Made by a program: the position numbers and the translations under genes
NCBI RefSeq assembly: GCF_000311725.1
Contig: NZ_HE978517.1
Location: 204,231-238,014 of the forward strand
Origin: Robertmurraya massiliosenegalensis JC6
Lineage (GTDB): Bacteria; Bacillota; Bacilli; Bacillales; Cytobacillaceae
Length of the DNA stretch: 33,784 nt
Reading direction: 5' to 3'
Shown: in pieces, positions 32,547 to 33,747 of the stretch
Numbering within the stretch: the stretch's first letter is position 1
Layout of the letters: every line of letters begins with the position of its first letter
The notes under the pieces: generated by a model
Seen by the model: only the letters and a program-made list of their open reading frames with translations
The model's database searches: none
What the model was told of the DNA's origin: nothing

Positions 32547-32619
32547 TGAGCCATGAAGGACTCGAACCTTCGACCCTCTGATTAAAAGTCAGATGCTCTA
32601 CCAACTGAGCTAATGGCTC
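32547..32619 (-). tRNA. tRNA-Lys (anticodon TTT)
   Basis: The acceptor is GAGCCAT/ATGGCTC with discriminator A. The anticodon loop is CTTTTAA, and the T loop has GGTTCGAGTCC. CCA is not encoded. It is the last gene of the array. The 5' half is duplicated at 32756-32781. Confidence 0.96.
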
Positions 32620-32670
32620 TAAAGTAAATATGTGCTACTATTTATTTTCTTATTTTAAGATACAAGGCAT

Positions 32671-32785
32671 CTACGATGTCCCCATCTCAGAAAGTCAATT
32701 CAAGTAGCAGCTCGATGGGTACAACTCGAAGCAAATTCATAGATGAATCGCTCGTTGCTCTACCAACTGAGCTAATGGCTCTAAA
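32671..32785 (-). repeat. tRNA-half-linked element, copy 1 (Lys)
   Basis: Positions 32756-32785 repeat the first 26 nt of tRNA-Lys plus 4 nt of its leader (30 identical bases, original at 32594-32623). On the minus strand this half-tRNA runs into about 85 nt (32755-32671) that match copy 2 (33632-33718) at roughly 88 percent. The element contains CCCATC...GATGGG arms where copy 2 has CTCATC...GATGAG. Confidence 0.8.
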
Positions 32786-32790
32786 AAACT

Positions 32791-32865
32791 TGGCTGGGCT
32801 AGCAGGATTCGAACCTACGAATGACGGAGTCAAAGTCCGTTGCCTTACCACTTGGCTATAGCCCA
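32791..32865 (-). tRNA. tRNA-Gln (anticodon TTG)
   Basis: The acceptor is TGGGCTA/TAGCCCA with discriminator G and encoded CCA. The anticodon loop is CTTTGAC, and the T arm contains GGTTCGAATCC. Confidence 0.96.
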
Positions 32866-32998
32866 ATAATATGTAAAGTTCAAAAATAAAAGGACTACCT
32901 ATAGCTTGTCCTGTTTTATGCTTTTATATAAGTAATGTTATTTGATTCCACAATACTTTGTAAATACGGAACATTTTTTCACTATGGAGAAAAAATGG

Positions 32999-33082
32999 TG
33001 GTGGAGGGGGACGGATTCGAACCGCCGAACCCGAAGGAGCGGATTTACAGTCCGCCGCGTTTAGCCACTTCGCTACCCCTCC
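32999..33082 (-). tRNA. tRNA-Tyr (anticodon GTA)
   Basis: The acceptor is GGAGGGG/CCCCTCC with discriminator A and encoded CCA. The anticodon loop is CTGTAAA. The long variable arm (CTCCTTCGGG region) is as expected for class II tRNA-Tyr in bacteria. Confidence 0.96.
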
Positions 33083-33087
33083 AAAAA

Positions 33088-33163
33088 TGGTGCCGGCCAG
33101 AGGACTTGAACCCCCAACCTACTGATTACAAGTCAGTTGCTCTACCAATTGAGCTAGGCCGGC
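33088..33163 (-). tRNA. tRNA-Thr (anticodon TGT)
   Basis: The acceptor is GCCGGCC/GGCCGGC with discriminator A and encoded CCA. The anticodon loop is CTTGTAA. It lies 5 bp upstream of tRNA-Tyr. Confidence 0.96.
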
Positions 33164-33216
33164 ATATTAAATAATAATGAATGCTATTTTACTCCACTTT
33201 GCTACGTAAAAAACTT

Positions 33217-33292
33217 TGGTGGAGGATGACGGGATCGAACCGCCGACCCCCTGCTTGTAAGGCAGGTGCTCTCCCAGCTGAGCTAATCCTCC
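33217..33292 (-). tRNA. tRNA-Val (anticodon TAC)
   Basis: The acceptor is GGAGGAT/ATCCTCC with discriminator A and encoded CCA. The anticodon loop is CTTACAA. Confidence 0.96.
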
Positions 33293-33321
33293 GAAGTAGT
33301 TGTAGCAACTACAACTTTTAA

Positions 33322-33393
33322 TGACCCCTACGGGATTCGAACCCGTGTTACCGCCGTGAAAGGGCGGTGTCTTAACCGCTTGACCAAGGGGCC
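33322..33393 (-). tRNA. tRNA-Glu (anticodon TTC)
   Basis: The acceptor is GGCCCCT/AGGGGTC (one G-T pair) with discriminator A. The anticodon loop is CTTTCAC. CCA is not encoded. Confidence 0.95.
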
Positions 33394-33409
33394 AGTATAA
33401 TATTTAGAG

Positions 33410-33482
33410 AGCTTCCAACCGGGCTCGAACCGGTGACCTCTTCCTTACCATGGAAGTGCTCTACCTGCTGAGCTATGGAAGC
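33410..33482 (-). tRNA. tRNA-Thr (anticodon GGT)
   Basis: The acceptor is GCTTCCA/TGGAAGC with discriminator T. The anticodon stem CTTCC/GGAAG encloses the loop ATGGTAA, giving GGT. CCA is not encoded. Confidence 0.94.
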
Positions 33483-33526
33483 ATACATTCTAGCTCACAA
33501 TTATATTACAAATAAAGTGACTAAAA

Positions 33527-33601
33527 TGGCTCCGCGGGTAGGATTCGAACCTACGACCGATCGGTTAACAGCCGATTGCTCTACCACTGAGCTACCGCGG
33601 A
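33527..33601 (-). tRNA. tRNA-Asn (anticodon GTT)
   Basis: The acceptor is TCCGCGG/CCGCGGA with discriminator G and encoded CCA. The anticodon loop is CTGTTAA. It is the first intact gene of the array in this window; its 5' half is duplicated at 33719-33744. Confidence 0.96.
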
Positions 33602-33631
33602 AAATCATTAATTAATTCCTCTATCATGTGT

Positions 33632-33747
33632 ACTTTCCGATTGTCCTCATCTCAGAAAGCCCATTCAAGAAGCAACTCGATGAGTACAACTCGCAGCAAA
33701 TTCATGATGCTTCGCTCGTTGCTCTACCACTGAGCTACCGCGGAAAA
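33632..33747 (-). repeat. tRNA-half-linked element, copy 2 (Asn)
   Basis: Positions 33719-33747 repeat the first 26 nt of tRNA-Asn plus 3 nt of leader (29 identical bases, original at 33576-33604). On the minus strand this half continues into the same element as copy 1, beginning CGAGCG and ending with GATGAGGACA. The 37 bp to the window end hold nothing recognisable. Confidence 0.8.

Follow-up and report, generated by a model that had tools for sequence, protein, structure and literature searches.

In Bacillales, tRNA genes of at least 12 kinds have in their leaders a shared non-coding element (E) of about 80 nt, mostly 76 to 82 nt, embedded in a second copy of the 5' part of the very tRNA gene that follows. 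On balance, we consider it probable that E is a small nonautonomous mobile element, mobilized in trans, with a coupled or selected duplication that would spare the tRNA. An earlier note on this DNA had suggested an element that inserts into a tRNA gene and yet spares a complete copy of it, and this core reading gained weight from the many hosts of E, from empty and filled sites, from apparent host switching, and from copies outside tRNA genes. The window is the whole stretch analyzed, 33,784 nt of Robertmurraya massiliosenegalensis JC6, and the term unit designates the succession of left copy, E, right flank, and spacer.

Two units lie in the window, upstream of tRNA-Asn and tRNA-Lys (Table 1). 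Their left copies, of 29 and 30 nt, comprise the leader and the first 25 to 26 nt of the adjacent tRNA on the minus strand, and the two copies of E share 89% identity over about 96 nt (blastn). A repeated element joined to the copied 5' parts of two different tRNAs, as first described, is indeed present, and its limits (32594 to 33747) coincide with the outermost positions of the two direct repeats. Since both repeats are exact, match the adjacent tRNA, and surround one common insert that recurs elsewhere, a chance origin is not plausible. The E of the Asn unit consists of P1 (ACGAGC..GCGAGTTG), P2 (CTCATC/GATGAG), and a 3' end GGACA, its first base A being also part of the 29-nt repeat. The P2 of the Lys unit, CCCATC/GATGGG, is a compensated form of that in the Asn copy.

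Table 1. Features of the tRNA-Asn and tRNA-Lys units in the window
Feature	Position	Strand	Basis
Left flank (half-tRNA), Asn unit: leader copy and first nucleotides of tRNA-Asn	33719..33747	-	Exact 29-nt direct repeat with 5' end of intact gene
Element E (type 1), Asn unit	33642..33719	-	R1 match, 102.5 bits
Right flank ATCGG, Asn unit: tRNA-Asn nucleotides after GAGCA	33637..33641	-	Read from sequence
Spacer, Asn unit	33605..33636	-	Sequence
Intact tRNA-Asn (GTT)	33527..33601	-	ARAGORN and Rfam
Left flank (half-tRNA), Lys unit: leader copy and first 26 nt of tRNA-Lys	32756..32785	-	Exact 30-nt direct repeat
Element E (type 1), Lys unit	32677..32755	-	R1 match, 102.4 bits
Right flank TC of tRNA-Lys, Lys unit (just 2 nt match)	32675..32676	-	Read from sequence
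Intact tRNA-Lys (TTT)	32547..32619	-	ARAGORN and Rfam

In the genome from which the window comes, blast returned 15 matches, some of them to the tRNA half only, and R2, a model of type-1b copies, gave 15 matches, as a count without positions. Thirteen units were read in this genome, namely, 12 matches of the covariance model R1 and a divergent unit before tRNA-Gly-TCC. Units precede two of the four tRNA-Asn genes read, all three tRNA-Lys genes, all three tRNA-fMet genes (one with two tandem units), and both tRNA-Phe genes, and a solitary tRNA-Arg-CCT gene outside the rRNA-tRNA arrays also carries one. The suggested search of this genome and its relatives for E beside tRNA 5' halves thus placed all 12 R1 matches at adjoining tRNA genes here and revealed many hosts in relatives.

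Over all loci, R1 gave 232 matches in 134 loci; 210 were carried on (21 of the 22 left out were copies of kept ones, and one was untraced), corresponding to 193 distinct units. Every one of these has a tRNA downstream on the same strand, at no more than 500 nt in 190 cases and at 607, 612, and 3,004 nt in the others. Of 299 genomes in the class, 10 were R1 positive (1e-4, strict filters), as were 28 of 39 close relatives (0.01); of 199 genomes in the order, 93 were R2 positive (1e-3, strict filters). These whole-genome scans did not demand GAGCA and scored at most 14, 109, or 23 candidates per genome, so that per-genome counts are lower bounds. A pattern scan of named genomes, which demanded GAGCA before E and so favors tRNA sites, yielded 94 stretches, and among the 80 listed nearly all came from Bacillaceae; the genera were Bacillus, Mesobacillus, Neobacillus, Peribacillus, Cytobacillus, Robertmurraya, Litchfieldia, Lederbergia, and Heyndrickxia.

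Of 398 genomes in the class, 28 matched a pattern of two fMet halves; as judged from the printed rows, 15 matches were units and 13 were coding repeats or tandem intact tRNAs. Fourteen of these units fall within the order. The remaining one (L300, G391), a tandem half-tRNA-fMet unit from another order of the class, has a very different insert of near-perfect hairpins, quite unlike E, and two Lys halves were found in none of the 61 genomes of that order that were scanned. Phage records gave no match, and for a Paludibacteraceae MAG (L071) a match to the pattern was discarded for lack of support from the model (10.9 bits). The plasmid match is a tRNA array of the same layout on an Anoxybacillus plasmid (Anoxybacillus amylolyticus pDSM15939_2, L214), with units before tRNA-Lys and tRNA-Thr, and its half-tRNA-Lys may once have contained two E.

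In these units, a copy of the tRNA leader and 5' part (about 24 to 30 nt) is followed by E, usually 3 to 7 nt more of the same tRNA, a spacer of about 30 nt or more, and the intact tRNA. Insertion occurs at tRNA position 14 (fMet) or 24 to 27 (Asn, Lys, Phe, Thr, and a second tRNA-CAT), and the left copy up to that point has medians of 24 to 30.5 nt, depending on host type. Because this length stays nearly constant despite such different positions, its reference point is the site of insertion rather than the start of the tRNA. Unit periods, about 135 to 175 bp, are also nearly constant, and the view of the spacer as the decayed 3' half of a duplicated tRNA was rejected, since unit length does not change with insertion position. 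Insertion strictly after the D arm, as had been proposed, does not apply: E lies in the D arm or loop in fMet, Asp, and some Lys, Asn, and Arg hosts and near the anticodon loop in Gly. The insertion point is usually a few bases after AG, and the preceding motifs are loose, both at tRNAs (GAGCA^, TAGCG^, CAGTA^, CAGTG^, TAGAG^, and CAGCC^) and in dispersed repeats (AGCG^, CAGCT^, and AGCAACA^). One half-copy (L361) contains two E that differ in type and occupy separate sites. In a further locus (L349, G043), tRNA-Arg-TCT seems interrupted in the anticodon loop directly after a unit, by a putative group I intron.

The short right flank of the same tRNA after E was missing from the first description. 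Its medians are 4 nt for fMet, 6 for Asn, 3 for Lys, 4 for the second tRNA-CAT, and 5 for Phe, with a median of 0 for Thr, where the first base differs. In a set of 193 units (169 R1 units with a recognizable 3' end and 24 of type 1b), the flank matched at all five positions in 67, against 3.6 expected if the flank is taken from a different tRNA type and 12.3 if 5-mers from further inside the spacer are used, and at four or more of five positions in 137, against 43.6 and 56.6, respectively. Mostly, the right flank tracks the species-specific tRNA allele, and in some host types the match is gone. Agreement was 27/29 for Asn nucleotide 27, 13/14 for Phe, and 58/69 for fMet nucleotide 17, in Fisher tests that ignore the relatedness of the genomes. 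Furthermore, 21 aligned type-1b copies from eight kinds of tRNA host share 36 invariant columns, with the 5' end ACGAGC and the 3' end RGRCA; among type-1b copies, one 5' end ATGAGC was also seen. Where type-1b right flanks match, they abut with no loss or duplication, as in Thr (TAGAG^CAACTG), Phe (TAGAG^CAAAG), Asp (TAGCG^GTTAA), Lys (CAGTA^GGTAGAGC), and Asn (CAGTG^GTA). No clear right match was seen in type-1b units of fMet (2), the third tRNA-CAT (both of 2), most Gly, and one of two Phe; together with the Thr median, these argue against a strict flank rule.

The comparison of orthologous tRNA loci with and without the element, another proposal of the earlier note, showed empty and filled sites. 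In a tRNA-Arg pair from one genus, G008 is empty and G032 has a 148-bp insert at CAGT^AGG; the two are colinear upstream to the insertion point, and the end of the insert repeats the leader and tRNA 5' part. Among 27 tRNA-Arg-CCT loci examined by eye, nine hold E, two a truncated remnant, and 16 neither. Unit-free fMet leaders that follow a tRNA, 27 as counted by eye, measure 9 to 28 nt in 20 cases and 41 to 80 nt in seven, two of the latter with unit remnants, and in fMet carriers the unit comes in addition to the leader. Relatives thus differ in which of their tRNA genes bear units, and do not all carry the same two copies at the same places. Tandem arrays of two to eight units exist, and degraded units occur. 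The locus L380 (G574) has eight tandem units before one tRNA-Phe, 155 bp apart (R2). Four tRNA-fMet leaders (L246, L247, L250, and L271, from G002, G005, and G025) keep the right flank and spacer of a unit, whereas the left copy is gone and E is wholly or largely missing.

E also occurs outside tRNA loci, in dispersed repeats of three genomes (G043, G600, and G471). In G043, all six dispersed repeats fetched, of about 300 bp and with inverted ends, contain E (R2, 35 to 47 bits; E values, 1e-10 to 6e-8); the repeat (L342-L347 and L362-L367) has the ends TGTTCAAAAAG/CTTTTTGAACA with the E-like module inside. G471 and G600 have at least 23 R2 matches each. Searched with a repeat that holds E, they gave 98 matches; 30 loci were fetched, and 27 had E and none a tRNA, in a sample picked by a query that itself contained E. 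These repeats (L400-L429) have inverted ends near GCTCTTTTCGTAAAGATTGTTG and carry E at three different internal positions. A repeat with E (L417) and one without it (L429) have both flanks in common, with the junction AGCG^GGA and no duplication; the aligner split this gap because the ends are alike, and the junction was therefore read by eye. Other repeat junctions are CAGCT^GAAG and AGCAACA^GAAA. Since E occurs in dispersed repeats, one of which also exists without it, E is, judged by these sequence contexts, an insert in its own right.

Two hairpins, P1 and P2, are predicted in E on the tRNA-sense strand. Among 123 type-1 copies, four pairs of P2 covary strongly (CG 53/GC 65; CG 91/TA 27; CG 94/TA 21; TA 110/CG 8), and in these pairs six GU and no AC wobbles were counted on the tRNA-sense strand, with a few other mismatches. 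Wobbles of the GU kind only on the sense strand argue that E folds as an RNA, or as a single DNA strand, of tRNA sense. P1, which has a predicted tandem GA mismatch, is conserved and does not covary in type 1. At the gathering threshold, Rfam recognized only tRNA and glmS in the window, the latter an ordinary ribozyme (25494-25663, 128 bits). In five unit-bearing loci searched at a permissive threshold, E stayed below the gathering score for every family; S774 (a Staphylococcus sRNA) and YrlA were set aside as weak, sub-gathering matches over tRNA sequence.

These compensatory changes and sense-strand wobbles would also be expected of a cis-acting functional RNA, in which the half-tRNA and E, within the pre-tRNA leader, control how the downstream tRNA is processed or folds, perhaps through competition for the 3' half of that tRNA, and are kept by selection. 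This explanation is the strongest of the alternatives, and we regard it as unlikely but deserving of serious attention. It agrees with inheritance that is mostly faithful to tRNA type, with flanks that track alleles, and with the unit at solitary tRNA-Arg, which, as read by eye, follows a promoter-like region and so falls within the expected leader. However, many relatives lack a unit at the same tRNA, as in the tRNA-Arg-CCT loci above, and this patchy presence, the decay of units, and the copies of E in repeats without a tRNA argue against a purely cis-regulatory role. Additionally, the fMet right flank is D-loop sequence, presumably with no helix partner in the tRNA fold. The earlier note had also conjectured that the half-tRNAs, where transcribed, might mimic substrates of RNase P or of tRNA-modifying enzymes.

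Some of the same observations count against the mobile reading. For 127 of 162 E sequences, with a few tRNA-type labels uncertain, the nearest neighbor outside the own type and genome was a copy at the same tRNA type in another genome, so that E follows the tRNA type across genera more than the genome. Helix covariation also fits long constraint in place, and right flanks that track alleles need either recent insertion or selection. Moreover, among the units read, no tRNA was simply split by E with no intact copy, as a plain transposon should leave in multicopy genes. Nevertheless, in a tree of 121 type-1 E sequences, which has few columns and many weak forks, the tRNA label changes 13 times, against a minimum of four and a shuffled mean of 47. 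Three changes concern fMet; seven concern Lys, for eight scattered rows, the Lys copies lying mostly among those of Asn and the second tRNA-CAT. From type-faithful neighbors combined with label changes, we infer long faithful residence with occasional switches of tRNA host, in which E takes the flanks of the new host.

A more doubtful alternative is flank-guided homing, in which a transcript or single strand with E between target flanks homes into other copies of the same tRNA gene. This would explain why the sequences on either side of E reproduce the target at the insertion site, with near-constant length, and track its alleles, and it suits a genome in which all the Lys, fMet, and Phe copies read carry units, though only half of the Asn copies do. 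However, no enzyme for it was found, some carriers having neither of the two candidate domains considered below, and ordinary gene conversion between arrays would spread units too. Slightly less probable still, and offered as speculation, is that E is a tRNA-homing element whose transcript, with its own target flanks, would template both insertion and regeneration of the intact tRNA through an undiscovered enzyme, as a bacterial counterpart of tRNA-linked short interspersed elements.

Ordinary tandem duplication or a recombination scar of the tRNA array, with no mobile element, is very improbable. Left flanks that are direct repeats, tandem recurrence of units, and remnants compatible with recombination loss would suit it, but one conserved insert common to different tRNAs (12 or more kinds of gene) and present in other repeats as well, with matched right flanks, would not, and the copies outside tRNA loci disfavor it further. 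Finally, remnants of att sites of tRNA-targeting integrative elements are scarcely credible. Partial tRNA copies beside whole genes are typical of integrated elements (PMC9897764), but unit periods are too short to accommodate an integrase or cargo, the copied half encloses E, and different tRNAs have E in common.

Under the favored reading of E as a nonautonomous mobile element, we infer its mobility from sequence comparison, and the following steps may be envisaged. Comparison shows that the insertion of E is clean, mostly at a short distance after AG, both in tRNA 5' regions and in other dispersed repeats, and that, at the tRNA genes seen, the tRNA 5' part and leader are present twice, once split by E and once intact. 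Insertion would go together with, or be tolerated thanks to, a local duplication of about 25 to 30 bp plus spacer that would regenerate the gene. Units would then increase in number as tandem copies, probably through unequal crossing-over of the repeated halves, pass now and then to other tRNAs, and decay, and the mobilizing enzyme would act in trans. Bacterial mobile DNA often lands in tRNA genes. If the reading is true, an element of about 80 nt that enters the tRNA 5' part yet spares the gene would be a new, tiny solution to landing in them, a folded RNA would sit in many tRNA transcripts across an order, and E would offer a ready substrate for finding the mobilizing enzyme.

The earlier suggestion that E lacks coding capacity and hence would be mobilized in trans fits the same observations as the rest of the core reading. 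No gene acting in trans was identified. At 1e-6, Y1_Tnp was present in 29 of 39 genomes, with no match in six carriers (G002, G005, G018, G022, G048, and G051), and RVT_1, considered as the reverse transcriptase that a derivative of a group II intron or other retroelement would need, was present in 23 of 39, being absent at the same threshold in the carriers G004 (80% complete), G009, G013, G019, G021, G022, G037, G039, G045, G046, and G048. G022 and G048, with two and six R1 matches, respectively, have neither domain at 1e-6, and strict dependence on an RVT_1 reverse transcriptase or a Y1 transposase was rejected on these grounds.

In the literature searched, with most subscription journals outside its scope, we found no description of the half-tRNA-E layout. 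Integrative elements also leave a partial and a complete tRNA copy according to the source cited above, whereas here there is no room for an element between the copies and an insert of about 80 nt lies within the partial one. Like MITEs, of which bcr1 is a named example (PMC3733652), E is short, non-coding, dispersed, and folded. In contrast to them, the type-1b ends ACGAGC and RGRCA are not inverted copies, so that E has no terminal inverted repeat, and no target-site duplication is present at its ends (L417/L429 by eye; matching tRNA flanks abut without loss). In G043, G600, and G471, E is nested inside repeats that, by eye, do have inverted ends. A further family, considered by description only, is the 74-nt Bhal-1 of B. 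halodurans (PMC2267715). The BOX, RUP, and SPRITE sequences of Streptococcus are small interspersed repeats, and BOX is modular, with a variable number of inner modules (PMC3049150); compared by description and not by sequence, E differs in targeting tRNA genes and in sitting in a copied 5' part.

The IS200/IS605 (Y1 HUH) family inserts cleanly, without target-site duplication, beside a short motif and has hairpins near both ends, and its non-coding derivatives are mobilized in trans. E resembles such derivatives (REP and PATE) in its clean insertion beside a short motif, and the subterminal hairpins have possible counterparts in P2, with covariation, and P1, as predicted. On the other hand, the six carriers without a Y1_Tnp match differ in this respect, and we know of no tRNA-regenerating layout in IS200/IS605-type transposons. 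While we found no evidence for membership in either group, E would, by analogy, come nearest in behavior to the small hairpin elements of Y1/REP type or to the inner modules of BOX.
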